Assembly: GCA_017517665.1 (NCBI GenBank)
Contig: JAFWYP010000008.1
Span: 1 to 40,977 of the forward strand
Origin: Clostridia bacterium
GTDB taxonomy: Bacteria > Bacillota > Clostridia > Oscillospirales > Acutalibacteraceae
DNA length: 40,977 bases
Direction of reading: 5' to 3'
The notes below the pieces were generated by a model, which ran no database searches, was not told the DNA's origin, and saw only the letters and a program-made list of their open reading frames with translations. Shown here one piece after another: positions 7,758 to 32,489 of the stretch; positions within the stretch are counted from its first letter, which is position 1, and each line of letters starts with the position of its first letter. The translations under genes and the position numbers were made by a program.

Positions 7758-7789
7758 CAAATCATAATCAACAGACAAGGGGAATGATT

Positions 7790-9423: not shown

Positions 9424-10548
9424 ATGAATTTTGATTTTTTGAAGAATTACCCTGAAATGAATACTCTCTATACGTACTGTTCCGAATCTGAACGTTTTGT
9501 TTATTCTTATCCCGATATAAGTATCACATCAGCAAGAAAATCAATGGAATATATTGTCAAGCTGGTTTACGGTTCAGCGGTTCAAAGCGATATCACAGGC
9601 CTTACTGTGTTTGATATGCTTCGTGATTATGATTTCATTGACTATCTTGATAATAAACCTCTTGTTGATGCGATTCACTTTATCAGAAAAATCGGAAATC
9701 AGTGTGTTCACGGTACATCTTTTGAAAGTGAATCGTCAATTGAAGTTCTCGAAAGACTTCATTTTGTTGCAGGAACTGTCTGTGTACTTCTCGGAGTGAT
9801 TAATTCGTTTGAAGAATTTGATAGAAATATGCTTACCCAAACAACCGATACAACAACAAACATAAGCGATGCAGAACCCGAAGTTTCCGAACAGCTGATA
9901 GGCAAGTTCGCACACCGACTTTCTTCCGTGAGACGTGTTTCCGAGCTAAAAAAAGAGATTATTGATGTTCATAAAAACACAAAGACAATGAACAAGAACA
10001 TCAGAACAGGCAAAGTTTCATCAGGAACAGACTCAGGAAACAATACCAGAACAGCTTTTCAACTTGTTGCCGAATGGTTGGATGACCGAGATGAAATTTT
10101 GGAAATTGCCGTGGATAATATAAGATGTATCATATCTGCAAAAATTAACGGTAAAGTCATTAATGTCGCAGTAAAAAGTGGCTGTCCTGCTCTGGCTTTT
10201 AAAAAAGCTGATGACACATGGGATGCTCTTGGCGGAATCGATTATGTTCTTTACGCAACGGACTTCAAATCCAATATTCCCGTTCTTGACCAACTCCGTG
10301 TTTTTAAATCTGATGAGTTTTATAAAATGTGGGAAGATCTTGGGCTTATCAGAAAAAAGGTTTCAAGAGGTGAAAGTGACAGACTTAAAGCAATCTACGG
10401 CGATGATTTCAAAACTGATATCAATCTTCACGCTGACTCAATTACTGTTCAGTGCTTCACAAACTCGAACAAGAAGTATACCGCTCTTCAGAATGTTATC
10501 GTGAATTATCCCATTCTCACTGAAAATGGATTCAAGAAAATTTTTTGA
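9424..10548 (+). CDS. DUF4145-like N-terminal domain protein
   Basis: A 374-aa protein. Residues ~1-125 (SITSARKSMEYIVKLVYG..., then FIRKIGNQCVHGTSFES and a long helix LERLHFVAGTVCVLLGVI) resemble the DUF4145 domain found at the N-terminus of HsdR-like restriction subunits and in stand-alone proteins. A Ser/Thr-rich linker with basic residues follows (residues ~130-210). The C-terminal ~165 residues form an unrecognised alpha/beta domain (IRCIISAKINGKVINVAVK...). No catalytic motif is seen. It uses copy 2 of the shared promoter module, with AAGGAG nine bases before ATG, and is convergent with the BREX operon across a shared terminator. It may be a defence accessory or a sensor. Confidence 0.78.
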   Translation: MNFDFLKNYPEMNTLYTYCSESERFVYSYPDISITSARKSMEYIVKLVYGSAVQSDITGLTVFDMLRDYDFIDYLDNKPLVDAIHFIRKIGNQCVHGTSFESESSIEVLERLHFVAGTVCVLLGVINSFEEFDRNMLTQTTDTTTNISDAEPEVSEQLIGKFAHRLSSVRRVSELKKEIIDVHKNTKTMNKNIRTGKVSSGTDSGNNTRTAFQLVAEWLDDRDEILEIAVDNIRCIISAKINGKVINVAVKSGCPALAFKKADDTWDALGGIDYVLYATDFKSNIPVLDQLRVFKSDEFYKMWEDLGLIRKKVSRGESDRLKAIYGDDFKTDINLHADSITVQCFTNSNKKYTALQNVIVNYPILTENGFKKIF

Positions 10549-10621: not shown

Positions 10622-11749
10622 TTATACAATTATGATTTTTTTTATCGCTTTCGCAATTTCTAACACATCTTCTTTTGTGTTATCTTTGCTCAGAGAGATT
10701 CTTATAGTTCCTTTGGCTGTTTTTTCTTCTAATTGAATCGCTCTTAACACATGAGAAATTTGAGTATTTATACTATCGCAAGCGGAGCCAGTAGAAACCT
10801 CAATTCCCATAAGATCAAGACGATGCAATATTGTTTCGCCCTCAAAACCAGGAAAAGAAACACTTATATTGCCTGGAACGGTACTATTAGAGCCATTTCT
10901 GACAAAATTGATTTTTGATTTTTTCAATTCGTAAATCAAGTCTTTTTCAAGACCTATAATATGTTTTTGGTTTTCTTTTATATTATCGCAATTCTTTTTG
11001 AGTGCAATAGCCATAGCAATGATAGAAGCTATATTTTCTGTTCCCGCTCTTTGACTTTTTTCTTGTGAGCCTCCACTTAAAAGCGGAAAAATCTTAATTC
11101 CATTTTTTATGTAAAGGAATCCAATTCCTTTCGGACCGTTAAATTTATGAGCAGAAGCAGAAAGCATATCAACACCTAATGCTTTAACATCAACCTCTAT
11201 GTGACCAATCGATTGAACAGCATCAGTATGAAACAAAACACCCGATTCATGACTAATATCGGCTAATGATTTAATCGGCTCAATTGTTCCGATTTCATTA
11301 TTTGAAAGCATTATTGAAACCAATTTGGTGTTGGGAGTAATTGCCTGCTTCAACACCTCAGAACTAATAACACCTTGAAAATCAGGCATTAGATATGAAA
11401 CGTGGTATCCCAGTTTTTCAATATCCTCACAAGAACGAAGAACAGCATGGTGCTCAATTGCTGATGTGATAACATCTTTTTTGTTTGAATCAGAAAAAAC
11501 CGTTCCTTTTATTGCCCAATTATCACTTTCGGTTCCACCTGAAGTAAAATAAATTTCTTCAGGCTCAGCATTAATACAAGAAGCAATCATTTCACGAGCT
11601 TCTTTAAGGGCTTTTTTAGGTGCTCGAGAAAAAGAATAAGGCTGAGAAGCATTACCATATTCGTTAAGCAAGTATGGCTTCATAGCTTCAAAGGCATCAA
11701 TATCAAGTTTTGTAGTTGCCGCATTATCGGCATAAATGATTTTTTTCAT
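10622..11749 (-). CDS. Cysteine desulfurase of the BREX type 4-like operon (NifS/IscS/DndA type)
   Basis: A PLP enzyme that takes sulfur from cysteine as a persulfide and passes it on. It has 375 aa from ATG 11749 (minus; GAGGT seven bases upstream). Motifs: YADNAATTKL at the N-terminus, FTSGGTESDNWAIKG, EHHAVLRSCE with the PLP-stacking His, HTDAVQSIG, the PLP lysine in SASAHKFNGPKG (K202), RAGTENIAS, and the active-site cysteine C324 in STGSACDS on a mobile loop. It is the last gene of the operon, 7 bp after the tetracysteine gene. A dedicated desulfurase beside a PAPS-reductase-like BrxP parallels DndA/SspA with DndC/SspD in DNA phosphorothioation. An alternative is Fe-S cluster supply for BrxP. 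Confidence 0.95.
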   Translation of the reverse strand: MKKIIYADNAATTKLDIDAFEAMKPYLLNEYGNASQPYSFSRAPKKALKEAREMIASCINAEPEEIYFTSGGTESDNWAIKGTVFSDSNKKDVITSAIEHHAVLRSCEDIEKLGYHVSYLMPDFQGVISSEVLKQAITPNTKLVSIMLSNNEIGTIEPIKSLADISHESGVLFHTDAVQSIGHIEVDVKALGVDMLSASAHKFNGPKGIGFLYIKNGIKIFPLLSGGSQEKSQRAGTENIASIIAMAIALKKNCDNIKENQKHIIGLEKDLIYELKKSKINFVRNGSNSTVPGNISVSFPGFEGETILHRLDLMGIEVSTGSACDSINTQISHVLRAIQLEEKTAKGTIRISLSKDNTKEDVLEIAKAIKKIIIV

Positions 11750-11756
11750 GTTTACC

Positions 11757-11954
11757 TCATTTAAAAAGTGTGCAGCCTTCTTCTTTGAACTCTTCAATTT
11801 TGTCGAGCAAGTCATTGACGGAACAATCGAGATAATTTGCTAAACATTCTATACAGAAAAAATTATCAATATTGGCACCTATCATTTTTTTGTTTATGCC
11901 AATAGTGTCTTTGTCGAGAGGCTCTTTTCCGCATATTGAACAATTATTCTTCAT
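11757..11954 (-). CDS. Small tetracysteine (zinc-ribbon-like) protein of the BREX operon
   Basis: A 65-aa protein with two CxxC pairs (C5/C8 in NCSICGKE, C34/C37 in FFCIECLANYL) plus C44 and C61. The second half is a helix ending EEFKEEGCTLFK. It could bind zinc, or act as a sulfur or Fe-S carrier between the desulfurase and BrxP. It overlaps the brxL end by 11 bp and is 7 bp ahead of the desulfurase gene, so expression is coupled to both. Family name not recognised. Its position between BREX core and sulfur donor makes it a candidate functional component, but no function has been shown by sequence alone. Confidence 0.85.
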   Translation of the reverse strand: MKNNCSICGKEPLDKDTIGINKKMIGANIDNFFCIECLANYLDCSVNDLLDKIEEFKEEGCTLFK

Positions 11955-13404
11955 CGCTTAAATCCTTTACAGTGAATACAGGCATCAGCTTATTTTCTTT
12001 TTGATACTCAGCGGTATCAATAATTGCAAGCTGCTGCCATATTATTTTGCGCATTTTAACAGCAGGTCTTAAACAGTAACGCTGGAAATCATTCACACTG
12101 ATATCTTTAGGCGTTCTGACGTTTGGGAAAAGAAGCTTAAGAAATGCCGTTGCGATTCTTTTAACAGCTTCAGTGTGTCTTATATAAGCACTACCATCAA
12201 CATTAACAAGTCGATCAACAATTGAACGGTAGCTTACATCGCTTCTTAATTCGTGCATTATTGAACAGAAATATTCTGTATTTAATGCCCAACCTGTCAT
12301 TTTTAAATTATTAGTCATAGGAGGTATATCCCAGCCTTTAATAAATCCGTGCATTCGGTCGACTAAAGCACTTTCTTTGAAAAGCTCAGGAAGTTCTGTT
12401 AACATGTTTGAATATTCATCCATGTTGATTTGCTCAATGTTTCCAAGGAAAATAACACCTGCATCAGATTTGCCTTCATATCCTCCAAAATTAAATGTGC
12501 CTCTTTCCATATAGCCTTGCATTATTGATCGCATCTCGTTCACATCACTAAATTGAACAAGTTTTACTTCGTCAATAGCTACATAGTCATTCCCCATTAT
12601 AAAACCAGGTATGCGTCTTGAAGAATCGTAGAACATCTTTGCTCTGGTGACTTTTCCTCCGTCGGTAAGGAATCCAAATTTACTGATGTTTCCAAACACA
12701 TATGTTTTTCCAGTGCCTTTGGGTGCAAGTTCAAAAAGATTTAATCTTTTTTCAACAAAAGGCAAAAGTCTTGAAAGCATAGCTAATTTTTGAGTCTCAT
12801 CTTCATAGGCGTCTGCATTATAGTCGATCGCACCCAAAAGAATATCTATCCATTCCGCAACCGTAAATTCGGAACGAACATCTTTAAAATATTCAAGATC
12901 TATTTCATAAGGGCAAAAATTAATAAAATCTAAAAGTTTAATTTTTCCTGGGATTTTAGGCTTAGCATAATCGTCAGGGGGTCTATATCCAAGTTCAATT
13001 ATTCCCCATGTTTCTTGTCCATTGACAAGTTCACTTCTTACTGAAGACCATACACGAGATTCAATAACTGTTTCTTTGTTTGTTAACCCGTAATCAGGAA
13101 GAGAAAAAGATATTTCCTCTGTCTTAATATCAATATCGACAGTGATTTTAGTTAAAATCTTAACTTTTTCATGTTCAATAATTATACGATCTTTAATGCT
13201 TACCCAGTCTTTTTTGTCAGGAATGTGCGCCTTAATGAATTCAGATACTTCTTGAATATCGAAATCACCGTTTTCGTCTTGGAATTGTTTTAATAACCAG
13301 TCACGAAGAAAAGATGGCAAACTTAAAGAAGAAAAGAAATTGCTGTTTTGCAAATCTTTATATACGATCATTTCGTCAAAACAATCTCTTAATTTATCAA
13401 TCAT
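11944..13404 (-). CDS. brxL: BrxL-type AAA+ protein, short form
   Basis: A 486-aa AAA+ ATPase. Walker A is APKGTGKT at 227-234 in the BrxL signature context LFELAPKGTGKTYVFGNIS; Walker B is YVAIDEV at 274-280, followed by MQGYMERGTFNFGG and FLGNIE. In type 1 BREX, BrxL is about 680 aa with a C-terminal Lon-like domain; this protein stops after the AAA+ and a helical lid, so the Lon-like part is absent, as expected for type 4 forms. BrxL assembles on DNA and is needed for phage exclusion in characterised BREX systems. It starts 12 bp after pglZ and overlaps the next gene. Confidence 0.9.
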   Translation of the reverse strand: MIDKLRDCFDEMIVYKDLQNSNFFSSLSLPSFLRDWLLKQFQDENGDFDIQEVSEFIKAHIPDKKDWVSIKDRIIIEHEKVKILTKITVDIDIKTEEISFSLPDYGLTNKETVIESRVWSSVRSELVNGQETWGIIELGYRPPDDYAKPKIPGKIKLLDFINFCPYEIDLEYFKDVRSEFTVAEWIDILLGAIDYNADAYEDETQKLAMLSRLLPFVEKRLNLFELAPKGTGKTYVFGNISKFGFLTDGGKVTRAKMFYDSSRRIPGFIMGNDYVAIDEVKLVQFSDVNEMRSIMQGYMERGTFNFGGYEGKSDAGVIFLGNIEQINMDEYSNMLTELPELFKESALVDRMHGFIKGWDIPPMTNNLKMTGWALNTEYFCSIMHELRSDVSYRSIVDRLVNVDGSAYIRHTEAVKRIATAFLKLLFPNVRTPKDISVNDFQRYCLRPAVKMRKIIWQQLAIIDTAEYQKENKLMPVFTVKDLSDEE

Positions 13405-13416
13405 ATATTTGCCTCA

Positions 13417-15696
13417 TCAAAAGAACTTACGTTCATTTTGCCCTTCTTTCTTTAATTTAAAATTTAATCCAGAAGCAATTATACCGTTGCAATAATAAAC
13501 ATCGAAGCTATAATCTCCAACTTTCTTTCTTTTAAAATCAGAAAGAACAAATTCATAATTTCCTTTTCCGTCAGACTCGCCTTCATAACTTGTGCCTTCA
13601 GCTACTATTGAAATTTTATCCATGGGATATTTAATAAAGAGTTTAAGCACTGGTTCGGACTTGTAACTTGCGGTTACAATAGGCGTTGTAACTATGAATT
13701 CATTATCTTTAGGTGTTGCAATCAGTTCAATTATAGGAACAACAACCTCTTCAAGAGAGGCACCTCCATGCACTTCTACATTGGATTTTCTTCCGCCCTT
13801 AAAGCGGTCATAATTTGTAAGAACCCAATAGCCTTTTTCTTCCATTGAGTTCAATGGCTTAGTGTCCCCTTCAGATATTGGACAACATCTGCCAGAGTGC
13901 TTACCTTTTAACTCCATTCCGCAAACGATGTCACTTTCATTGATTACCGCGAGACGGCTGGCGCCATGATCAGAAACAATAATCGCTTTTTCAAAAGCTC
14001 CCGTAGTAATTTTTGCCTTAATTTTATCAAGCAATTCTTCAATTATTTCAAGCTCGCGAATTAAATGCTTTGGAGTTTTGGTAACTCGATAATCGTAGTC
14101 ATCGTTACCTTTATGTTTAATTTCATCAATACTTTTTACATCAAGCACATTAACGCCTTTGTTTTCAAAATATTCTACAAATTCTTTGTTTAATTCTGTA
14201 ATAGAAGGTAATTCACAGTAACAAACTGTAACTCTTGCATGTAGATCTTTTTCGTAACATTTTTTGAGAATAAATGGTAAAAACTCTACGCCAAGGGCAT
14301 CAACGAAATATGCTTGTGCATTTTCAATATTAATATTTTCTATTTCCGAGGTTCTAGGCTGAAGCAAAGAAATAAAATCTCTTTTTGATGCTTGTTCATT
14401 GACTATATCTAAAAACTCATCGGATATTTTATTTGTTACCTTCATATAACGATACATTTCAAAATATTTAGATAACAACTCCGAATCAAATTTATATGGC
14501 AACAGATATGAGCTAAGATCAGGAAAGACTGTGTTTAATATTTCAATAAGTTCTTGTGTTGAATATCTGTTTCCATATTCAGCTAAATAATCAATTATTT
14601 CTTCACGCTCAAGTTTAGTGGCATCTGTTAGATAGTATATTGCATTTTCCTCTTTGCTTCTAACTAAAGCGCAATAATCAACAACTTCATCTTCCTGTGA
14701 ACCTAAAGCTTGAATTATTTTCTTTCGTTCAATATATTTATGCGAAAAGTCAGACGAACTATGATCCAAGTCATAAATAGAACGATAAATACATCTGATA
14801 AAATCTTTAACATTCGACGAGTTCTTTATGGCTGAGGTGAGACAAGAATTATCTTTAGTGCCAAACAATTTTAATCCAATAAAATATAGCCACTTTTGAA
14901 TGTCATCAAAAATAGTCCAGCTATTGATTATAAGGTTTAAGTTTTCGCAATTTCCGAACTCAGAATTAATTAAATTAGCCCACGTGTGCATACTATTTAA
15001 TTTTTCGAGAGCCCAAAGCCATTGTTCATCAGACCCAAAACTCTCATCAATTCCTGAAGCAATGGGATCTTTAAGTAGTACAGCCTCATAGGATGATTTT
15101 ATCGCTGAAATGGGAATTAAAGAATTGGTGAAATTGGTTGTAAGATGATTTGTAACAATAAATATCTTATCTCTTGATAATGCTTCAATAGAGTTCCCGA
15201 TTGAAGGTAATCCGTGATTCATGAAAGAAGCATTTGGAGCAAACTTCGAATTACTTATAAAAATCAATTGCGGAATTGCTTGATACTCACCATCAACTAA
15301 ACACACTCTGTTTTTTTGTGCAGGATTTGTAAAACTAAGATATTGTTCACATTGATAAGATATAAATACAACCTTACCTCTAGTAGACAAATTGATTATT
15401 GTTTTTAATGTTTTCCTCAATTCATCTTCACCATACATACGAAGATAAGTCGTGAAATTTGTAATAAAGACAATACCATCAGCATTACTTATCAAATCAA
15501 AAACCAAATCAATTTGGGGCATTTCATCATTCTTACAATAGTCTTTTGAAGAAATTACACGATTATCGCCTACATTGAAATGTGAAACAAGTTCGTTGAA
15601 TTGCGAACTATTGTTTACATTTATAATAAGGGGTTGAGACACAGAGGATGATGTTATAAAGTTATTGATTCTGTTTATGCAAGCATCAAGCAACAT
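13417..15696 (-). CDS. pglZ: PglZ-family alkaline-phosphatase-fold protein
   Basis: A 759-aa protein. The C-terminal half carries the PglZ domain: AYFVDALGVEFLPF (Asp465 as a probable metal/nucleophile-region residue), the signature IVSDHGASRLAV (DHGASR at 576-581) and GKHSGRC at ~599-604, followed by a beta-rich C-terminal region. PglZ is the one gene shared by all BREX types and belongs to the alkaline phosphatase superfamily; its substrate is unsettled. The N-terminal ~400 residues look like a degenerate P-loop-type fold (LIINVNN, IVFITNF, KVVFISYQ) without a clear Walker A. AAGGAG precedes ATG 15696. It sits 13 bp after brxC. Confidence 0.94.
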   Translation of the reverse strand: MLLDACINRINNFITSSSVSQPLIINVNNSSQFNELVSHFNVGDNRVISSKDYCKNDEMPQIDLVFDLISNADGIVFITNFTTYLRMYGEDELRKTLKTIINLSTRGKVVFISYQCEQYLSFTNPAQKNRVCLVDGEYQAIPQLIFISNSKFAPNASFMNHGLPSIGNSIEALSRDKIFIVTNHLTTNFTNSLIPISAIKSSYEAVLLKDPIASGIDESFGSDEQWLWALEKLNSMHTWANLINSEFGNCENLNLIINSWTIFDDIQKWLYFIGLKLFGTKDNSCLTSAIKNSSNVKDFIRCIYRSIYDLDHSSSDFSHKYIERKKIIQALGSQEDEVVDYCALVRSKEENAIYYLTDATKLEREEIIDYLAEYGNRYSTQELIEILNTVFPDLSSYLLPYKFDSELLSKYFEMYRYMKVTNKISDEFLDIVNEQASKRDFISLLQPRTSEIENINIENAQAYFVDALGVEFLPFILKKCYEKDLHARVTVCYCELPSITELNKEFVEYFENKGVNVLDVKSIDEIKHKGNDDYDYRVTKTPKHLIRELEIIEELLDKIKAKITTGAFEKAIIVSDHGASRLAVINESDIVCGMELKGKHSGRCCPISEGDTKPLNSMEEKGYWVLTNYDRFKGGRKSNVEVHGGASLEEVVVPIIELIATPKDNEFIVTTPIVTASYKSEPVLKLFIKYPMDKISIVAEGTSYEGESDGKGNYEFVLSDFKRKKVGDYSFDVYYCNGIIASGLNFKLKKEGQNERKFF

Positions 15697-15709
15697 AACA
15701 ACTTACTCC

Positions 15710-18700
15710 TTAATTATCTTTAATAATTTCAATGCCAACAGTCATATTCTCTTTGACGAGATCTTTTAAAAACTTTTTAACTTCAGCAACATCAAGGCTA
15801 TCAATCTTATCAAGAGCCTCGTTGCATCCGCCTTGGTTATATTTCATTTCAGCCTTTGCCCTAAGTTTCTTATCAATTTCAGGCAAACCATACCAATCGT
15901 AAGCATCTGCAGCAACATGAGATTCAAGGTAACTCTTAACTTCGTCAATATCTTTAAGCATTACATGATAATCCTTCAGAATTGCTTCGACAAAAGCTTT
16001 GTTAAGGAAATTTTCATCGCTAAGTTTATTGATAAAGTCAGCCTTACCAATATAATCAATTGCTCTGTTAATTGAATCAGTATCAGGGCTCATTCTGTTA
16101 ACAGTATCAAAAGCCGCTTTCGCCTTTGAAAACTCCGAATCATCAACGACACAAAGTATAGGCATACGATACTTTTTAGACCAGTCTCGAGGTGATTCAG
16201 TATTAGTAAGATCTTTCCAAAGGGTTTTAAGTTTGCGATTTTGTGATGTTTTTTCGTAAGTTTCAACTCTATCAGAAACCAAAGCAAAATAGTCTGATTT
16301 GTCCATTATAAATGAGCCAGGGATTGTCTTATACAGTTCACGGACTTCTTCATCGGAATATTTCTCTATAAATGCACTGCACGCTTTTTTGAAAACAACA
16401 ATTTGGTCTTCATAGAAATCCTTAAAACCTTCACTGTGCTGTACAATTGCATTGAAGAAATCTTCTTTTTGTGAATCAAGAATATTATTTGCTCTCTTTA
16501 TATTATACAATATTTCAATTAAAGGCTTGATAGTTCCAAAGACACCGCGTGCCATAGGATAAGAAACGCGAATGTTGTTGCATCTGTCACACCATTCTTT
16601 AATACATGCAGCAAAAGTTGTTGTTTTGGTAATAATTTTATTGCTTTCAAAAATTATTCTATATTCGAGAATAACTTCCTCTATTTTTTCGTTGATTGTA
16701 TTTATATTCCAAACCCAATTTGCAGCATCGGCATCAAATTTCTTGCGAAGAACATTGATGTACTGTCCACCATCATTTATTTTTGAAGCCAAATTGATAA
16801 GTGTGCCATCTTCATAAATCTGGAGATATTTCTCCATACCCTTAGTGCACACTTCTTTAGTTAAAAGTTTTTTCAATTCGGTTGCAACATTCGGTTCTTT
16901 GATGCAAATTTTACCGATTTCAATAGCAATATCGTTGTCGGTTTTTGCCGTGGAAAGATTTTTATTGTTTGCAAGGCCGCAATAACAATCGATAACCTTT
17001 TCCATAATATCAATATCAACATTATAAACAAGGTCATCTAAAACATATTTAAGACACCAAACAGGGAATGAAAGTTCCTTCATTCTATTTCTTATTCTAT
17101 CGCGTGTGCTTTCAACAGAGGTGCAGAGATTTGGTGAAATATCAAATGCTTCGGAAGTAACTTCGTTGAATTTTTTCTCTTCGTCAGTCATTTTAACAAT
17201 GTATTTTTCTTTGTAGCGATTACCAGGAGTGAATTTATGACTAACTATTTCGTTAATCATTTCCTTAAGTTTATCAGTGCTAAGCACATCACTTACAATA
17301 CCATCGCTCCAAGTAAATACATTGTTAGCATACTCTTTGAGAACAAAACCAATAATAAATGCAGTGATATTACAAGGAATAAAACCGTAAGGTGCTTCTT
17401 CAAGTGCATCATATATTGTAGAAATTGCAACTCTTCCATCAGAATTAAAAGCTTTCTGAATAACACTTTCAACATGAATCTTGATTTTAGAAATGTTTAA
17501 AGAAGGAGATATTTCCCAATATTTTTCTATTTTCCACGCTCCATCTAAAGCAAGATCGATTTTAGTTAAATTGTTACTAGACTTGAATGTTTGGGACAGC
17601 TCCTGCTTAATTCCGCATTCTGCTCCGGCTTTGAGAGAGGAACATGTATACATGTTGTCGATTAATGTATAGTTAGATTCTAATCCACAAGGGAACATCT
17701 TTTTATTGATTTCACAAAGATATTCTACAACTTCTGTAGCTTTTGATTTAGATACGCCAATAGTGTTTCCGGGTACATAAATTTTAAATTGGCATGTTGC
17801 AATCTCTTTTTTCCAACGCTCAAGAATTTCTTTCGAGATCTTATCGTATTCATTTGCTTGGTCATTATTTTTTCCTCTGTAGCAAATTGAGTATGCAAGG
17901 TTTTCACAATAATCTTCGTGATTGTTTTTCCCGAGAGGTCTGAGAGATGCATCAATTATAACTGCCTTACAATTGTTTTTAACAGCTTCAGCAATTTTTT
18001 TGCTTACAGCGGCGCTTTCGCTATCGTCCTTGGCAAAAACAATTACAGCAGGAATTTTCACAGGATTTGCCTCGGCTTTATTAGTAACATTTCTAAGAAC
18101 AGTATCAAAATCATTTGATGAACAGTGATCCAGAACATATCTGTTTTTAATAGACGCAACAAGAGAAACCGCCTCGTGAACACTGACAGTGTTTACAAGT
18201 GTAGTTGTAGGTTTTTTCTTGATTTCTTCAATATTTTTTCTGAAAACCTCAGGGTCAATATCAATGGTATTTATCATTGCAGAGAAATGACCATTCGGTT
18301 TAACGAAAATGATCTTTTTATTTACAAGTGCATTAGCAATATTCATTGCTAATCCGCCTTCAAGATCTGAACCTTCAAATGCATAATCAACATTTTTGGC
18401 GTTCGGAGCAAAAAGATCAAGATCATCACCTACACGCTCTGCGATTGCTTGAAGAAGAAGAATTGTTTTAAGAACACGTTTTTCATCAATATCAAGCTGT
18501 CTTTCGAGCGAGGGTGTAAAACTATCTAAAATAGTTCTAATATCTCTTGAAAGGTACTCTTTTCCTGTTGAATAGAAGAAATCCCAAAGCATATCAACCG
18601 TAAGCAACGGATTTTCATCAAGAGGACCATAGTTGTCGATATACCATTGGAAACCTTTAATATCTTCGCCACGGTCATTTTTGATAAAATCAAACATGCT

Positions 18701-19879
18701 TCGCTGGTTAGAATCGAAAGCTGAAGAAATATGTTTAAGAATTAACGCTGCATAAGGATGAATCGGAAGAATGTTTACAAGTTCTTTTTTAGCAATACCA
18801 GCGTGCTTCATAACCGCATCACGCGAATCGGAGGTTCTGCCGTAAAGATCCTCTGAGAATTCATCCCACTCTTCTTTCATCATCGGGTCATCCGTGTTTT
18901 TCATTGCAGCGCCCATAAGCTGAAATGCCATGTTTTCAGGAAGCTCAATAACAGAAGTAGGCTTCATGAAACGGTCTAAAATTTTCATCTTATCTTTATC
19001 TGTATCGTCAAAAAGTGCCGAACTTTTATGAGTTACAATGATAAAATAGAAAGGGATTGATGCACTCAATTCAACAAGATGCTGGAACCCTGTGAGTGAA
19101 CGAACATTGTTAAGAAAATACTCTGTAAATTCGTCCCAAATAAAGACAAGTGAACCAATATTATTTTCGTTAATAACATCCTCTATCCACTTTGCAAGAA
19201 TTTCAGTGTTCAATTTAAAAGGAGTAATCTGCACTTCTTTACCTACGCGGAAGATTTTTTGCATAAGTGAATTAAGCGCTTCACCTTCAAAAGATTCAAG
19301 TTTTTTTACTATAGTTTCTGCTGTATCGCCAGCAAAAAGAAAAGAGTATTTTTGTGCAATCAGTGCATTAAAATAAGTTTTATTTACCTCATCAGACAGC
19401 CATTCTATTGCGCCATCTTTTAGTGCATTGTTGTTTCCGCCATATCCAGCTTCAGTTAGAGCATTAACAATGCTTTCTTGAATAGCGAAAGAAAGCTGGG
19501 CATCATCTTCTATATAAGATGAACCATATCGATGGACAGTTAAAATCTTTTTGGCTGATTTTGCTGCAACAAATCTCTTGCAAAGATCAGAATCGAGGTC
19601 ATATTCATTAAAATACGCTTCAGTTTCTTCGACAGAAGAGTCTAAAAGTTTTTTGAGTGTTAAAACTGCATGCGACTTACCAGTGCCATAAGCACCCTCG
19701 ACCCAAATCGAAAGCTTTTGCGAACGATTAAGCATGGCAACCGTATTTTTTATTAAATTAACAAAGGTTGTGTGGGGATAAAACTTTTTCCAAACATCGG
19801 GATTTTCTTTGATTATCTTTTCATTGACCTGAGGAAAATATTCCGGATCAATGTTGAAATACTGACGATAGTTAGACAT
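15710..19879 (-). CDS. brxC: BrxC/PglY-type P-loop ATPase
   Basis: A 1389-aa ATPase, the typical BrxC size. The N-terminal region has DPEYFPQVNEKIIKENP and Walker A GAYGTGKS (62-69) in WVEGAYGTGKSHAV, with Walker B LVFIWDE (244-250) followed by FTEYFLNN. An ATPase/helical region runs to about residue 450 and a long helical C-terminus with few recognisable motifs follows. In BREX, BrxC is an essential ORC/Cdc6-like or STAND-like ATPase thought to scaffold the complex on DNA. It lies between brxP (22 bp) and pglZ (13 bp). An AGGAG precedes ATG 19879. The assignment rests on Walker context, length and neighbours. Confidence 0.92.
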   Translation of the reverse strand: MSNYRQYFNIDPEYFPQVNEKIIKENPDVWKKFYPHTTFVNLIKNTVAMLNRSQKLSIWVEGAYGTGKSHAVLTLKKLLDSSVEETEAYFNEYDLDSDLCKRFVAAKSAKKILTVHRYGSSYIEDDAQLSFAIQESIVNALTEAGYGGNNNALKDGAIEWLSDEVNKTYFNALIAQKYSFLFAGDTAETIVKKLESFEGEALNSLMQKIFRVGKEVQITPFKLNTEILAKWIEDVINENNIGSLVFIWDEFTEYFLNNVRSLTGFQHLVELSASIPFYFIIVTHKSSALFDDTDKDKMKILDRFMKPTSVIELPENMAFQLMGAAMKNTDDPMMKEEWDEFSEDLYGRTSDSRDAVMKHAGIAKKELVNILPIHPYAALILKHISSAFDSNQRSMFDFIKNDRGEDIKGFQWYIDNYGPLDENPLLTVDMLWDFFYSTGKEYLSRDIRTILDSFTPSLERQLDIDEKRVLKTILLLQAIAERVGDDLDLFAPNAKNVDYAFEGSDLEGGLAMNIANALVNKKIIFVKPNGHFSAMINTIDIDPEVFRKNIEEIKKKPTTTLVNTVSVHEAVSLVASIKNRYVLDHCSSNDFDTVLRNVTNKAEANPVKIPAVIVFAKDDSESAAVSKKIAEAVKNNCKAVIIDASLRPLGKNNHEDYCENLAYSICYRGKNNDQANEYDKISKEILERWKKEIATCQFKIYVPGNTIGVSKSKATEVVEYLCEINKKMFPCGLESNYTLIDNMYTCSSLKAGAECGIKQELSQTFKSSNNLTKIDLALDGAWKIEKYWEISPSLNISKIKIHVESVIQKAFNSDGRVAISTIYDALEEAPYGFIPCNITAFIIGFVLKEYANNVFTWSDGIVSDVLSTDKLKEMINEIVSHKFTPGNRYKEKYIVKMTDEEKKFNEVTSEAFDISPNLCTSVESTRDRIRNRMKELSFPVWCLKYVLDDLVYNVDIDIMEKVIDCYCGLANNKNLSTAKTDNDIAIEIGKICIKEPNVATELKKLLTKEVCTKGMEKYLQIYEDGTLINLASKINDGGQYINVLRKKFDADAANWVWNINTINEKIEEVILEYRIIFESNKIITKTTTFAACIKEWCDRCNNIRVSYPMARGVFGTIKPLIEILYNIKRANNILDSQKEDFFNAIVQHSEGFKDFYEDQIVVFKKACSAFIEKYSDEEVRELYKTIPGSFIMDKSDYFALVSDRVETYEKTSQNRKLKTLWKDLTNTESPRDWSKKYRMPILCVVDDSEFSKAKAAFDTVNRMSPDTDSINRAIDYIGKADFINKLSDENFLNKAFVEAILKDYHVMLKDIDEVKSYLESHVAADAYDWYGLPEIDKKLRAKAEMKYNQGGCNEALDKIDSLDVAEVKKFLKDLVKENMTVGIEIIKDN

Positions 19880-19901
19880 TTTTTATTCCTCCAATATCAA
19901 A

Positions 19902-22235
19902 TCAGAAAAGCTCAAGAACATCTGCAGAAGTTTTTTCGCTGTTAAGAGTAATATTATCAAGACCTAAAGTAAACTTAGCGCTTATAAATTCTGGATATTT
20001 AATAGAAAGACCGTTGAGCATTCTCTCCATATCCTCTCTGCCTATACCAAAAATCTGTGTGGGGCTGATACCGTCAGAATCTATTTCATGGTCAAGCAAA
20101 CGAGAAAGACTGAACTGATAATAGTCTTTACAAGCCTCAGCAAATTTGTAGAGAGAATAAAGAATGACGCGCGAATCAGAATACATCCATCCAGTTCTCA
20201 TTATAGAACGCATCGATCTCTTAATTCCTGTTTTAGTTTCTTTTTCATCAACATCTGGATCTCCAAACCCAATTTTTCTAAGCGGTTCATTAGTATAGAG
20301 AATGGTTTTAAAACTATTCCAAAATTCTCCCTTAGCTTTATCTGTAGCACCATCACCCATATCAAGTTTTAATCTGTCTTCATCATAATTTTCATAAAAC
20401 GGTACATTCTTAACATACCACCCAAAAGCTGGGGTGTAGGCAAGATTACAAAGCATTAGTGCCCACGCCTCTGTAGTATCAACACCAATATCTCTGATCT
20501 TATCACCAAACGGAGTGGTTTGGCGTTTGTTAACTATTCCTGCATCTTGCATGAAACCAAACATTACATCTGTTTTTCTGTTGCCAGGTTCGAAGTTGTC
20601 GTTAGAAAGATACTCTTCAATCCAATTATACTCTACGCCTACGCTAAGATATTTATTAATTCCTTTTAATGTTTTCATTTCATTGCTCCCTCTTATTGAA
20701 TGATAATATAAGCAACCACTTTGAATTTTGAGACACTCGTGACATTTTGAACAATTATCCGAAATTTCAACCTTACCGTTGTCCATACTTATGTTTCTCT
20801 TAGGGCACTCTGCAACACATGTTTTACAGTTAATGCAATAAAGCGTTTTTACTAAGATGTTTTTCATAAAATATATAAATTCAATTGAATTTTTGTTTCT
20901 GCCTTCATTATCAATTGAAATGATGGAATAATTTCCATCACGAATAATAAAACCTTTTCTATATACGCCTTTAAATTCGAATTCGAATTTATCAGAAGAC
21001 TCTTCTAATAGACTACCAATTGTTTTATACCATATTTTCCAATTATCGTTTAAATCTTTTGCTTTAAATATATGATATTTGCTGGTTGTTGAATATGTGA
21101 AGCGTTCTTCTTCAGTAAATTTTAATTCTCTACCGCTTAAACGTGTTTTCCATCCTCCGACTTCAAGAAAAAGCTTTTTATTATCACCTGACAAATCCTT
21201 AGAACTATTTTCAGTAATTAGATTTGAAAATTTGTCAACAATTTCAGGGAAACATACGCGTTTCATATATTCGTGTTTCTCAGAAGAATTAGGACACATA
21301 ATGCATCCAACTCGATTGAATCCCATTTTGTACGCATCATTAAAGCTAAGATTTCTTTCGTACATATAGAGGAAAACTTCAAGTGATGACCAATTTAAAA
21401 TAGGATGATAGCTAAATTGTCCTGCTAATTTTTTCCCAAGGCTTAATTCATCGTAATTTGAACGAGAAGAACTTTCATCTCCTCTAACACCTGTAATCAT
21501 CATAGAGCGGATCGAATTTAATCCCAAAACTTCACACAATTTATTTATAACAGGAACCGTTTTGTGAACACTACAACACCACCTTAATTTTCGAGCAGGC
21601 GGTCCAAATAATTTCCACGATTCTATTGCAGTCATATCTGCTGATGCTTCTATAAAATCTATTTCTTCATCAAAACAGAAATCTTTTATCTCCTCTGCTA
21701 GCTTAATAGTTGTTGGAAACTCCATATCGGTATTTCCAAACATAACCTTAAACTCATTGTGTGGAAGAGCTCTTTGAACTAAATCCAGTGCTACAACGCT
21801 ATCCTTGCCACCGCTGAAAGCAACATAAAACACGTCAACTCGATTTTTGTGCTCGATATATGTGTTATATATTTTTTTGATAGTTTCCTGCTCTAAACTT
21901 TCCATGATATCTTTGTTCTTTTTCACCATCGCAGGAATATCAACAAACCTTAACGGAGATCCATCCGGTTCGGGGTCTTTTATAATTTCAATTTCAGGAG
22001 CAGTATAAATTGAACCTCCTTTTATTTTTGCGACTTGTTCGCCTCGATAAAAATAATTATTTGCCTCGGCCCACATATAAGGATATGTATCATTTTTATC
22101 ATAGTTCCAATATTTATCAAAGCCCAAAATATCAAGCTCTTTATAGTATACAGGTCTTGGTTCTTTGCTGAATACCTGATGCGTAGTGTTCAAAAGGATT
22201 CCACCGGTTGTCGAATCCCATTCATAACAGTACAT
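19902..22235 (-). CDS. brxP: BrxP: PAPS-reductase/DndC-like domain, cysteine clusters, DUF4007-like C-terminus
   Basis: A 777-aa multidomain protein. Residues ~130-340 form the adenine-nucleotide alpha-hydrolase (PAPS reductase/DndC) domain: PP-loop SGGKDS (141-146), GNTDMEFP, RWCCSVHK (C220, C221), GVRGDES, and C311/C314 in RVGCIMCPNSS, the likely Fe-S ligands. A ferredoxin-like stretch follows with C467, C470, C473, C477 and C495, C498, C501, C508. From ~520 to the end is a DUF4007-like domain (NRKTDVMFGFMQDAGI, TTEAWALMLCNLAYTP, RTGWMYSDSRVILYSLYKFAE). In DndC, this chemistry activates the DNA backbone for sulfur insertion. The gene starts 3 bp after the HARE-HTH gene. It replaces the PglX methyltransferase of other BREX types. 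Confidence 0.93.
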   Translation of the reverse strand: MYCYEWDSTTGGILLNTTHQVFSKEPRPVYYKELDILGFDKYWNYDKNDTYPYMWAEANNYFYRGEQVAKIKGGSIYTAPEIEIIKDPEPDGSPLRFVDIPAMVKKNKDIMESLEQETIKKIYNTYIEHKNRVDVFYVAFSGGKDSVVALDLVQRALPHNEFKVMFGNTDMEFPTTIKLAEEIKDFCFDEEIDFIEASADMTAIESWKLFGPPARKLRWCCSVHKTVPVINKLCEVLGLNSIRSMMITGVRGDESSSRSNYDELSLGKKLAGQFSYHPILNWSSLEVFLYMYERNLSFNDAYKMGFNRVGCIMCPNSSEKHEYMKRVCFPEIVDKFSNLITENSSKDLSGDNKKLFLEVGGWKTRLSGRELKFTEEERFTYSTTSKYHIFKAKDLNDNWKIWYKTIGSLLEESSDKFEFEFKGVYRKGFIIRDGNYSIISIDNEGRNKNSIEFIYFMKNILVKTLYCINCKTCVAECPKRNISMDNGKVEISDNCSKCHECLKIQSGCLYYHSIRGSNEMKTLKGINKYLSVGVEYNWIEEYLSNDNFEPGNRKTDVMFGFMQDAGIVNKRQTTPFGDKIRDIGVDTTEAWALMLCNLAYTPAFGWYVKNVPFYENYDEDRLKLDMGDGATDKAKGEFWNSFKTILYTNEPLRKIGFGDPDVDEKETKTGIKRSMRSIMRTGWMYSDSRVILYSLYKFAEACKDYYQFSLSRLLDHEIDSDGISPTQIFGIGREDMERMLNGLSIKYPEFISAKFTLGLDNITLNSEKTSADVLELF

Positions 22236-22238
22236 CAG

Positions 22239-25200
22239 TTATCCCATCCTTTCTCTCTTCGTCTCCGCCTCGCTGATAATATAGTCTAACTTGCTGTAGT
22301 TTTTCTGTGCAAAATAGCCTCTGTCAATTAAATATGTTAAAACTGACTGTTTGTCCAAAGCTATATTTGAATTTGCTATATCATCAATCAAAACATCATA
22401 GAAGTTTTCAAATTTTGATTTTGCTTTAACTATCGCACCACAACACTTATCTTTATTAAATGCCGTGTGAAGAAGTTTATACTTTTTTGAATAAAAAGTT
22501 ACATAGCATTCAAGCATCCACTCGTTCCATTGAAATCCATTATCCGGGAATGCCCCGAAATGTTTGATGTCAAGAATAGAAACGTAATCGTTTAAGCAAA
22601 AACTATCTATTGCATCATCAATCGCATCAACATCAAACGATATTAAACTCTTGGAAACGAAATTATTTTGATTAACTCTGACCGAATTAACCAACAAAGA
22701 TTCATAATAAACAGTGGATCCGAGTGTTTCAGCAAGAGCAACTGCATCCTCAACAGAATATTGTTCTCTGTTTTTGGAAAAATGTTCAAACACGCCCGCA
22801 GTGGAAACGGTTTCACCAGCCTTGCTGATAATATTCCCCTTGAAGAAATATTCCTTGCCTAAATAATATTTCAGAGCTTCACGAATACCGATTCTTGTGT
22901 AAACAGACCATCTATCCATCAGTTCGGGATATTTAGCGCTGATATGCTCAACAAGCTCATCTCCCGAAATGTATGTCTTATAATCTATTTCTTCGTCAAT
23001 AATTCTTGAGATTTTATAAAGTTCATTTTCACTTATTTCAAAATTCTCGGGAACAAAATATTCGCCTCTTTTATTCATTATAAATTCTTTGCTTTTAAGA
23101 ACGGCAGAAATCCTATCTTCTGTGATGTACGGTAATTTCTTTACAATTTCTTCAACTTGCATAGGAACGGGGGTCTCTCTTAACAAGGTCGAAATAACTT
23201 TTACCGGATCCAAAATATCGGTTTCGCTTTTTGCCAGATAACTAAACTTAACAACATAGTCGCCTTCGTTTATCGCTTCAAGATAAACTTTAAGCATTTT
23301 TGAATCAATGATTTTTTGGGTTAAAAAATCATCTGCAAAAATTTCATAAAGAGCTTCAAAATATATTGCGTTAATACCTTTTTCAAAAGAGTCTCTAATA
23401 TAGTTTATGAGTTTTTCTTTTGTTTCTTCGTCCAAAAGGACAGAGGGAGAATATATTCTCTCATTATAAAAAACACCGCATTTAATTATTTTTGCACTGA
23501 GAGAATCGTTATCGCATTCAAGTTCGTTGCCAAAAAGTTCTTTATAAAATGATTTGAATCTCTTAAGGTCAATAACAGATTCAGGTCGAAGTCCGTTTCG
23601 GAATTTTTCTTTTAAAACCTTACCAAAAGCGTTTAGATCTTGAGTTTCATCAACCGAATCTAAAATAGCTATGGACTCCGTCTCTTTTTGCTTTAAATAC
23701 TCAACATATTTATTAATTGCAAAGGTAAATCTTCCGGTTGAGTTCATTTTTGCAAAAACTGGGTTTTTGTAGAGCTTTTTAACAACAACTTGCACTTCAC
23801 CGGAATCACGCATGTTGATAATCGGTTCTTTGCAAAATGAATGCATAACGGCAAATTTTCCTGCACTATTGATTGCTGAAACCATTGAAATAATGGTGTT
23901 TTCGGCATAGTCTTGATACGCCCTTAGCCAATCTGCAAAATCTGATTTTTCGGCTTCATTTGTCTTGATAAAATTAACCGTATTATCTTTTGATGATTCG
24001 AAATTTGTTTCTTGTGAATCATCGTTTGAAGTTTCAACTGATTTTGTCAGATTCTCGTTTAATGTATTCCTTTTTCGATATAAAATTTTAAGGTTATCGA
24101 AATCAACATTGCATATAACAAGAACATTTTTGATTTTTCTGATAATATCGTTTGCACTTAGATTCGCTTCAACATAAATATCGTTGAAAAGAAACATCGG
24201 GACTCTCAGTTTATCTTTGTCTTCACAATCAGCCAAATCTATCCGCATTGAATTACTGAAACTCTTGCCGATATAACTGCGCATTATATCTTCGTATTCT
24301 TCAAATAATTTTTTAAGTATAGCTTGATATAATTCTCGCCAACTTGACTCGCCATAAACGATTTCGTTTTTATATATGCATTCAATCGGCACAGTGTATT
24401 CCAGTTGATTGTTTGCATTGAAATCAACCTTGTTTGTTTCAACAGAATTTATTGTTGCATCTGTTTCATCGTTTTTATGTGTTTCTTCTTTTGAAGATGT
24501 ATTTTTTTGCTCTTCTTTTTCAGAAACGTTAACAAGCGAAAAGACTACTCTTCCACGATTATCTGTTTGAGATATAAAAACATCTTCTTTTTCATGTTTT
24601 GAATAATCGTAATCGGCACAAGCCCTCTTCAATGTTACGCTTACGACACTGACAGGATATTTAGCTCCAAATTTATACAAATTTCTCGAGATAATTTCAT
24701 AATATATTTCTGTTGCAGTTAAAGGTATGTTTGAATTTTTTAGAACCTCTACAATTGCTTCTTTTATTGTTATGTTTTCAGAATCGTTTTCGATTTCCTC
24801 AACTTTGTCTTCTTTAATTTCTTTCTTTTCTTCCTTACCAGAGGAAGTACTTCCATTGAATATTGCAGAATAATATTCATAATATCTTTTCAACGACGAA
24901 TCTATTTTAGCTAAATTTTTTTTGAAACTCGTTCTAAAATGAACATCAAATTGGATAGTTTCAACAACAGCTTCAACTTCAGAAAGTTCCTGTACTTCAA
25001 AAATTGAAGGAGAGGAAATTTTGTTTGAACTTACACAATAATTATTCATAACGCTAAAGCAAAACTGCGAACGTTTAAAAGAATCCGTAGATAATTCTTT
25101 TTTACCAAGCCAATTATAGAAAGATTCTTTGCTCAGCATTTTTTTGCTTTCATCCGAAAGCAAAAACATTTCTTCGCTTAACACCTCTTGCGATTTATCT

Positions 25201-25622
25201 GCGGGTTCTATTCCTTTTTCTTCCTCGTCAATTTGGACATGCTTGATTTCACCCAAAGTTGATGTTTGATCAATAAAATTCTTGCTTTTAGTTTCGTTTG
25301 TTGTTTGATCAACGCTCATTTCATAGTCTGTATTTTTTTTCTTGATTTCATCAATAAAATCAATATACGAAGATAAAGTTTTAATTGCGATATCATAATT
25401 ATTGCGTTGCAACATTTTTAAAACAATATTTGATTGTATTTTTTTTCTTACATAATCAGCTGTGGAGGAATCAAGAGAATCAAACATAGAGGCGGTTGAA
25501 GATTTGATTTTTTTGTATATCTTTTCTGTGATTTCCGTGTCTCGCTTTGGATCATCAGAAATTTCATTTTTCTTAAGCCAAAGAAAAAAATCTTCTTTTA
25601 TTGTGATTGTTTTGTCAAACAT
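22239..25622 (-). CDS. Large HARE-HTH / winged-helix multidomain protein, first gene of the BREX operon
   Basis: An 1127-aa protein. ATG 25622 (minus) is chosen because AAGAGGTG lies 6 bp upstream; an ATG seven codons earlier lacks a ribosome site. Three copies of a helical ~85-residue module start with F..WL and end with Y..Y (about residues 10-91, 165-253, 559-645). A HARE-HTH domain lies at about 284-364 (IKEAIVEVLKNSNIPLTATE, then KFGAKYP and GRVVFSL). The C-terminal third has winged-helix-like pieces (PVPMQVEEIVKKLPYITEDR; TRIGIREALKYYLG) and the conserved-looking blocks RVNQNNFVSKS and HTAFNKDKCCGAIV. HARE-HTH domains link DNA-modification sensing to chromatin or restriction proteins. 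A target-recognition or regulatory role is inferred. Confidence 0.85.
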   Translation of the reverse strand: MFDKTITIKEDFFLWLKKNEISDDPKRDTEITEKIYKKIKSSTASMFDSLDSSTADYVRKKIQSNIVLKMLQRNNYDIAIKTLSSYIDFIDEIKKKNTDYEMSVDQTTNETKSKNFIDQTSTLGEIKHVQIDEEEKGIEPADKSQEVLSEEMFLLSDESKKMLSKESFYNWLGKKELSTDSFKRSQFCFSVMNNYCVSSNKISSPSIFEVQELSEVEAVVETIQFDVHFRTSFKKNLAKIDSSLKRYYEYYSAIFNGSTSSGKEEKKEIKEDKVEEIENDSENITIKEAIVEVLKNSNIPLTATEIYYEIISRNLYKFGAKYPVSVVSVTLKRACADYDYSKHEKEDVFISQTDNRGRVVFSLVNVSEKEEQKNTSSKEETHKNDETDATINSVETNKVDFNANNQLEYTVPIECIYKNEIVYGESSWRELYQAILKKLFEEYEDIMRSYIGKSFSNSMRIDLADCEDKDKLRVPMFLFNDIYVEANLSANDIIRKIKNVLVICNVDFDNLKILYRKRNTLNENLTKSVETSNDDSQETNFESSKDNTVNFIKTNEAEKSDFADWLRAYQDYAENTIISMVSAINSAGKFAVMHSFCKEPIINMRDSGEVQVVVKKLYKNPVFAKMNSTGRFTFAINKYVEYLKQKETESIAILDSVDETQDLNAFGKVLKEKFRNGLRPESVIDLKRFKSFYKELFGNELECDNDSLSAKIIKCGVFYNERIYSPSVLLDEETKEKLINYIRDSFEKGINAIYFEALYEIFADDFLTQKIIDSKMLKVYLEAINEGDYVVKFSYLAKSETDILDPVKVISTLLRETPVPMQVEEIVKKLPYITEDRISAVLKSKEFIMNKRGEYFVPENFEISENELYKISRIIDEEIDYKTYISGDELVEHISAKYPELMDRWSVYTRIGIREALKYYLGKEYFFKGNIISKAGETVSTAGVFEHFSKNREQYSVEDAVALAETLGSTVYYESLLVNSVRVNQNNFVSKSLISFDVDAIDDAIDSFCLNDYVSILDIKHFGAFPDNGFQWNEWMLECYVTFYSKKYKLLHTAFNKDKCCGAIVKAKSKFENFYDVLIDDIANSNIALDKQSVLTYLIDRGYFAQKNYSKLDYIISEAETKRERMG

Positions 25623-25652
25623 TTTGACACCTCTTGTTTGCATATTTATAAC

Positions 25653-32018: not shown

Positions 32019-32489
32019 ATGACTCTCAAAGAACTTCGCAAAGCAAAAAAATTAACACAGGTTGCGTGTGCGGAATATCTCGGAATTCCTCTGCGTACCT
32101 ATCAGAATTATGAGACGGATGCGTCAAAATCCGCTTCAATGAAATATGAATTTATGATGCAAAAATTAGAGGTATACGGTTTTGTGGATGAAACTCACGG
32201 AATATTGACAACCGCAAAAATCAAAGAAACCTGTTCATCAGTTTTTGAAAACTACGATGTTGACTACTGTTATCTTTTCGGCTCATATGCAAAAGGAAAA
32301 GCGACTGAAACAAGTGATGTTGACCTGCTGATTTCAACTTCCGTTTCCGGAATGATGTTTTACGATCTTGTTGAATCTCTTCGTGAAATATTGCAGAAAA
32401 AAGTTGATGTTCTGACTCGGGAGCAGCTCAACGATAATTCTGAACTTATAAATGAAATTCTAAAGGACGGTGTGAAAATTTATGGATAA
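32019..32489 (+). CDS. XRE HTH fused to MNT-type nucleotidyltransferase
   Basis: A 156-aa protein. Residues 1-~45 are a Cro/CI HTH (LRKAKKLTQVACAEYLGIPLRTYQNYE). Residues ~65-156 are a minimal nucleotidyltransferase: YLFGSYAKGKATETSDVDLL with G88-S89 and the Asp pair D100/D102, and a third candidate Asp in KKVDVLT (D130). In MntA/HepT modules such enzymes AMPylate and silence a HEPN RNase toxin. Here no HEPN gene follows; the next gene, overlapping by 8 bp, is a helicase-HNH. The fused HTH and the upstream palindromes indicate autoregulation. It may act as an inhibitor or regulator of the helicase-nuclease. Confidence 0.9.
   Translation: MTLKELRKAKKLTQVACAEYLGIPLRTYQNYETDASKSASMKYEFMMQKLEVYGFVDETHGILTTAKIKETCSSVFENYDVDYCYLFGSYAKGKATETSDVDLLISTSVSGMMFYDLVESLREILQKKVDVLTREQLNDNSELINEILKDGVKIYG

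Follow-up and report, generated by a model that had tools for sequence, protein, structure and literature searches.

An extended type 4 BREX operon with a mosaic DNA-binding-type subunit and a small five-cysteine protein in a Clostridia bacterium

Here we describe a seven-gene type 4 bacteriophage exclusion (BREX) operon from a Clostridia bacterium. It spans positions 10622-25643 of a 40,977-nucleotide stretch of DNA (contig JAFWYP010000008.1 of GenBank assembly GCA_017517665.1; hereafter, the window), with all genes on the minus strand, and encodes in order a large protein that we call gene 1, BrxP, BrxC, PglZ, BrxL, a small zinc-finger-like protein and a cysteine desulfurase. The best overall explanation, which we hold at a probability of roughly 0.6, is that the operon is a phosphorothioating type 4 BREX defence system of an extended subtype, in which gene 1 would serve as a DNA reader and the small protein as an adaptor. 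The same gene order recurs in dozens of loci, so the arrangement of the operon is not due to chance.

To compare gene 1 (22239-25643; 1134 amino acids by open reading frame and translation, with a likely start at 25622 or 25643) across related systems, we used a main set of loci (L061-L140) comprising the best 80 of at least 328 relatives, obtained by a scan of GTDB contigs with a BrxP alignment and two peptide patterns. As its members are the best-scoring rows from two peptide patterns, the set favours systems like the one in the window; the near-duplicates L062/L063, L114/L115 and L080/L126 were kept as separate loci. In counts of adjacency, loci lacking a view of the relevant side were omitted, and 76 (upstream; at least 1.5 kb before brxP) and 61 (downstream) of the 81 loci, window included, were kept. 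The conserved part of gene 1 proved to be its C-terminal tandem winged-helix array (residues 671-1131; 22251-23633), delimited by a hidden Markov model (HMM), AlphaFold2 and fold comparison. The HMM of residues about 671-1131 matched 77 of the 81 loci. A mechanical rule places the array next to brxP in 73 of 76 loci, and 75 of 76 have it there when the early-called brxP starts of L076 and L115 are allowed for, L122 being the sole locus without gene 1 beside brxP; the median gap between the two genes is 5 nt. AlphaFold2 modelled the array as winged-helix folds with a predicted local distance difference test score of 95.2. Foldseek TM-scores were low (at best 0.24 by query length among the matches listed), so no solved structure among those matches is close to the array as a whole, and a Pfam scan of 66 members yielded no consistent family. 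A first-pass annotation of the window had labelled gene 1 a HARE-HTH protein. This label holds in that PF05066 is matched marginally (26.5 bits against a cut-off of 25.9), but it names a minor module and misses the conserved array; with the module in just four proteins of the set, HARE-HTH was rejected as the defining domain. We found no description of gene 1 in the available main text of PMC12839542, PMC10853773 or PMC12707154, although the figures or supplement of PMC12839542 may show it.

We then examined loci beyond the main set. In the window's phylum, of which 398 genomes were searched, the type 4 PglZ model exceeded its cut-off at 15 places in 14 genomes, window included; the other 14 neighbourhoods were examined together with one locus located via gene 1. 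Gene 1 was present in seven of the 13 PglZ places with an upstream view (window included). When the same 398 genomes were searched with the array, scoring at most four candidates per genome, all eight strong matches (271-522 bits) lay beside brxP. At two type 4 loci without gene 1 (L055, 14652-16133; L049, 16397-17413), another protein of 338-493 amino acids lies beside the core, with starts that look similar by eye. Among 301 Bacteroidaceae genomes searched, 13 of 15 strong BrxP loci were examined, omitting G598 (split frame) and G398 (the source of L091), and the array was found in none of the 13 (upstream side usefully visible in ten); the source genome of L091, a Leyella that also belongs to the Bacteroidaceae, does carry gene 1. 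We placed these loci on a quick BrxP tree (LG+G4, midpoint root) of 93 rows, in which L059 forms a long branch. The tree holds 76 of the 81 main-set loci (five with broken or cut brxP omitted), nine of the 15 phylum loci (omitting L050 and L052, whose contigs are as long as those of L106 and L096, and the cut or broken L051, L054, L058 and L060) and eight of the 13 Bacteroidaceae loci (five omitted despite intact brxP). Gene 1 marks one clade of this tree (77 of 80 rows), requiring three changes against a shuffled mean of 12.3, and none of 500 shuffles was as low.

Most of the modules that make up the N-terminal part of gene 1 are of DNA-binding types, and they form a mosaic whose pieces are exchanged between systems. 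In the protein of the window, module HMMs and Pfam matches of the module copies place integrase-SAM-like helical modules at residues 19-97 (25353-25589), 174-257 (24873-25124) and 568-650 (23694-23942). Between the second and the third lie the HARE-HTH module (residues 289-369; 24537-24779), assigned by PF05066 and its winged-helix fold, and a SeqA-like alpha/beta module (residues 406-523; 24075-24428), assigned from AlphaFold2, VIA-align and profile comparison. Across the gene 1 proteins we counted 67 copies of the integrase-SAM-like module in 37 proteins (PF02899 in 7 and PF13102 in 5 of the 33 copies scanned, at best 1.2e-5), 31 copies of the alpha/beta module in 26 proteins, a module termed W in 30 proteins (no Pfam family in more than two of the 26 members scanned), sigma-70 region 4 in eight and the C-terminal domain of the RNA polymerase alpha subunit (alpha-CTD) in five. 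The 61 complete proteins display 22 N-terminal arrangements, a count that includes 'none' (five proteins) and 'unknown' (one) and in which, because the calls rest on HMM thresholds, some arrangements may reflect missed modules. On the BrxP tree these arrangement strings need at least 38 changes, against a mean of 47.8 in 50 shuffles, indicating that they are partly inherited and often changed.

A blast comparison, independent of the module HMM thresholds, covered the 45 pairs of loci whose BrxP proteins are at least 65% identical. N-terminal homology was undetectable in ten pairs, partial in 19 and colinear in nine; in six pairs both proteins were without an N-terminus, and in one it was present in a single member. 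The ten pairs without homology have BrxP proteins 67-81% identical; two of them involve L084, which has two gene 1 copies, and one the degraded locus L125. Loci L095, L097 and L099 have BrxP proteins 77-81% identical and gene 1 N-termini without detectable homology. In L084 (4173-9968), tandem gene 1 paralogues with differing N-terminal modules lie upstream of brxP.

The alpha/beta module was likened to the DNA-binding domain of SeqA, a reader of hemimethylated DNA, by VIA-align fold comparison and profile comparison, and this resemblance in fold and profile is suggestive, not proven. At the sequence level the module differs from SeqA: the Pfam matches of 28 module members include no SeqA family, no PDB sequence match appeared at E 10, and single-sequence hhalign of the module against SeqA gave 0.6%. 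A Foldseek search with the second AlphaFold2 model, which contains the module, returned no match at E ≤ 0.001 and no SeqA among the 50 matches listed, SeqA being recovered only by VIA; a SeqA search in phages gave no match. The SeqA contact positions are just partly kept (N in 17 of 28 members at Asn150, R in 1 of 28 at Arg116). In the available part of PMC6326788, SeqA appears purely as a microscopy reporter.

The conservation, the mosaic and the predicted folds together point to gene 1 as a DNA-reading subunit, a role to which we give slightly less than even odds. Its constant C-terminal array would dock on the BrxP/BrxC machine, and its exchangeable N-terminal modules (integrase-SAM-like, HARE, SeqA-like, sigma/alpha-CTD-like and W) would decide which sequence or modification state is engaged. 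Alternatively, gene 1 could be an invader sensor or trigger: its N-terminal modules would recognize DNA from phages, or DNA with phage modifications, and activate PglZ/BrxL, with no part in setting the phosphorothioate sequence. Exchange of modules between close systems is what an arms race would lead one to expect; of five proteins compared, the array shows the lowest conservation (pairs are on average 24% identical, those of BrxP 45% and those of the other proteins 30-58%); and distant relatives of the array are found near helicase-nuclease genes of the PbeA/PbeC kind and ABC-ATPase genes (model-confirmed in L159 and L163). However, the identifiable modules are of DNA-binding types, and in one case, L116, gene 1 is kept though PglZ and BrxL are gone; we consider a sensor rather unlikely. 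The L116 locus (12286-17923), in which the small protein gene follows brxC after 105 bases, retains gene 1, brxP, brxC, the small protein and the desulfurase, a hint that these five form the marking half of the system. Gene 1 could also be a transcription regulator of the operon: it does stand first and is built from helix-turn-helix modules, some with sigma-70 region 4 or alpha-CTD, but a size of up to 1488 amino acids, a median of 5 nt to brxP and variable strings on a constant domain would all be needless for a regulator, which makes this role improbable.

Two further loci are rearranged. In L135 (10001-13105) a single frame encodes BrxP (residues 1-764) and then what is left of a desulfurase (frame residues 953-1030). 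The genes between them look to have been lost, indicating that large deletions occur. In L110 (13734-17114) a stretch of roughly 1 kb looks inverted: the last part of pglZ and the first part of brxL are together encoded on the opposite strand (15455-16480). The sole long-spaced inverted repeat of more than 16 nt reported nearby is 23 nt long and 83% identical (15484-15506 / 16676-16698), and it does not sit at clear breakpoints. Possibly the effector genes are switched on and off in this way, or the locus is damaged.

The small protein (11757-11954; 65 amino acids) carries conserved cysteines at positions 5, 8, 34, 37 and 61, as seen from translation and alignment. The first-pass annotation had listed it as a tetracysteine protein; it is present as described, with five conserved cysteines rather than four. 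It was found in 60 of the 61 loci with a visible downstream side and the desulfurase in 44 of them, always together with the small protein; 16 loci have the small protein without a linked desulfurase. In L048 the small protein sits between brxP and brxC, and no desulfurase was found in that locus. On these counts and the L048 arrangement, the small protein as a partner of the desulfurase alone was rejected. On the BrxP tree it needs three changes. Pfam matches to the small protein are faint: DUF2197 in 19 of 30 members and a NirDL-like helix-turn-helix in 16 of 30. All 61 rows, those of the 16 loci without desulfurase among them, retain the fifth cysteine close to the C-terminus, mostly within the motif EGCxLF; one of the 61 rows lacks a cysteine of the two CxxC pairs. 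A zinc finger requires four cysteines. That a sulfur-transfer operon should conserve a free one near the terminus of this protein suggests that the residue may carry a persulfide or work as a redox switch. Most likely, the small protein would act as a sulfur or docking adaptor for BrxP, with the C-terminal fifth cysteine as a candidate persulfide carrier, and sulfur would flow from the desulfurase through the small protein to BrxP. A fuller proposal, which we put forward only tentatively and rather doubt, combines these parts: the array of gene 1 would plug into BrxP/BrxC; its swapped modules would set the phosphorothioate target, or the SeqA-like module would read hemi-phosphorothioated DNA after replication and so keep the mark in step; and the five-cysteine protein would relay sulfur to BrxP. 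Such a subtype would have recombinable specificity, comparable to that conferred by HsdS in type I restriction.

The desulfurase (10622 to about 11749) is of the NifS/DndA type by translation, Pfam and profile models (PF00266, 267.2 bits against a cut-off of 21.5; PDLC02657 (DndA), 432.3 bits; SspA, 427.4 bits), and falls below the NCBIfam equivalog cut-offs for NifS (445.6 against 530.75) and DndA (335.6 against 480). It contains a GSAC motif, which we take to be that of the catalytic loop. A ribosome-binding-like GAGG precedes the start at 11749, and none is apparent upstream of the ATG at 11815. The window's genome has a second desulfurase-like gene, on contig C24, and at just 36% identity to it the operon desulfurase is a separate copy. 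Linkage of the desulfurase to related type 4 loci was borne out in the 44 of 61 informative loci, in agreement with section 34 of PMC12839542 (January 2026), which gives a desulfurase in 255 of 457 taxa and treats it as a potential sixth core component; as it is already described there, the linkage was rejected as a new observation. In the other 17 of 61 loci no desulfurase was found, and the BrxP tree needs at least ten gains or losses: the linked desulfurase is dispensable in the window's set.

Type 4 BREX has reportedly been validated experimentally in Bacteroides salyersiae. That type 4 BREX marks DNA with sulfur is generally accepted: the available part of PMC11931770 counts brxPCZL among three known families for phosphorothioate synthesis, and type 4 systems are presented as phosphorothioate-based in section 34 of PMC12839542. 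The central claim of the first-pass annotation was therefore already in print. Its proposed sulfur-based self mark stands for type 4 BREX generally, and for the window's locus and clade it would follow from family membership. The DndA-DndC-like sulfur route that had been proposed alongside it holds loosely, as BrxP matches DndC models weakly (33.8 bits) and the type 4 reductase is described in section 34 of PMC12839542 as being without a DndC cysteine dyad. On published type 4 biology and family membership, the desulfurase would take sulfur from cysteine, BrxP (with its PAPS-reductase-like PP-loop and ferredoxin-type clusters) would put sulfur into the DNA backbone, carried by the BrxC ATPase, and PglZ and BrxL would act against unmarked invading DNA. 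It is conceivable, though on balance we doubt it, that the main task of the linked desulfurase is iron-sulfur cluster assembly for BrxP and that phosphorothioate sulfur arrives by another route. The eight ferredoxin-type cysteines of BrxP and Cys220, 221, 311 and 314 are invariant in 12 of 12 aligned proteins, and a cited reference reports in its title that DndA assembles the cluster of DndC; yet the two desulfurase roles are compatible, and section 34 of PMC12839542 gives the desulfurase as the sulfur donor in phosphorothioate systems. An operon that leaves the backbone free of sulfur, with methylation as its mark or with none, is very improbable: Pfam, defence-model and NCBIfam scans of the seven genes gave no methyltransferase family, and in its place stands a PAPS-reductase-like BrxP, as in published type 4 systems.

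The layout of seven minus-strand genes was as first annotated, with intergenic gaps of 3, 22, 13 and 12 bp, an 11-base overlap and a further gap of 7 bp, computed from the open reading frame coordinates. The assignment of brxP-brxC-pglZ-brxL as a type 4 core was likewise upheld, since all four products, identified from translations and profile models (with Pfam for BrxP and BrxL), match type 4 BREX models. BrxP (19902-22235) has a PP-loop (SGGKDS) in its PAPS-reductase-like domain, 4Fe-4S ferredoxin-type cysteines and a C-terminal region; it scored 723.7 bits against PDLC02510, which spans residues 1-776, and no Pfam family, including the DUF4007 often fused to BrxP, matched its C-terminal 282 residues at E 0.1. 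BrxC (15710-19879; an ATPase of 1389 amino acids) scored 924.9 bits against PDLC02485 and just 25.6 against the NCBIfam BrxC model (cut-off 400). PglZ (13417-15696) scored 290.7 bits against PDLC02554 and 444 against BREX_PglZ_4 (NF033445; cut-off 140), and BrxL (11944-13404) 671.3 bits against PDLC02505 and 395.1 against TIGR02688 (cut-off 329.3). At E 1e-20, BrxP matched four plasmid and five phage records. A phage-labelled record from faecal samples (MT835511.1, 16015-18288) encodes a full-length BrxP relative with 39.7% identity.

The operon is flanked by genes of other kinds. A divergent gene for a SpoVK/CbbX-type AAA+ ATPase lies beside it (25810-27726; 299 bits, below the family cut-off), with no match in the open reading frames of the 80 loci. 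Just downstream, on the other strand, are a DUF2779 protein with weak similarity to Cas4-type nucleases (7784-9265) and a protein whose N-terminus matches the defence-candidate model PDC-M16A (9424-10548; 44.8 bits). A further gene of the window was recognized by eye as helicase-like from its LPTGGGKT motif (32482-34752). Six flank genes of the window, compared with the open reading frames of the 80 loci at E 1e-10, gave one match, of 27%, in L096.

According to the available part of PMC11931770, just about 10-15% of available sites are phosphorothioate-modified. How phosphorothioating systems choose their sites, and why consensus sites are marked partially, is an open question on which gene 1 bears: a swappable putative reader beside brxP in otherwise similar natural systems (L095, L097 and L099) would be a direct handle on site choice. 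Likewise, the fifth cysteine of the small protein would offer a one-residue handle on sulfur delivery to BrxP, with or without the operon desulfurase.

Among known systems, Ssp and Dnd resemble the operon in pairing a desulfurase with a PAPS-reductase-type enzyme, and BrxC of the window matches SspC models weakly (58.3 bits). The window differs in having PglZ and BrxL and in its BrxP, which scores 33.8 bits to DndC, 29.2 to SspD and 723.7 to BrxP; against the curated NCBIfam DndC model it reaches 28.6 bits, below the cut-off of 290.4, and the window's genome (88.67% complete) contains no DndC over the cut-off. Pbe/CxC-ABC-ATPase systems hold a distant relative of the gene 1 array (51-95 bits) beside PbeA and PbeC, within a large protein in L159 (6491-14664) and L163 (5285-13045), and blast found no match of the window's BrxP, BrxC, PglZ or BrxL in these stretches. 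The minimal brxPCZL of Bacteroidaceae has the four core genes in the same order, with a BrxC of about 1130-1180 amino acids against about 1390 in the window's kind; gene 1, the small protein and the desulfurase were not found in the 13 loci (upstream side visible in ten, downstream in 11), whereas L091 from Leyella has all three. The nearest description, in section 34 of PMC12839542, shares with the window brxP, brxC, pglZ, brxL, the desulfurase and a small zinc-finger protein, said there to lie often beside the type 4 desulfurase. That section does not name gene 1. Nearly all informative loci of the window's set have the small protein (60 of 61), 16 of them without a desulfurase, and it carries a fifth cysteine. 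What is new, on our best reading, is a subtype of type 4 BREX extended by a five-cysteine protein and by a DNA-binding subunit of mosaic build.
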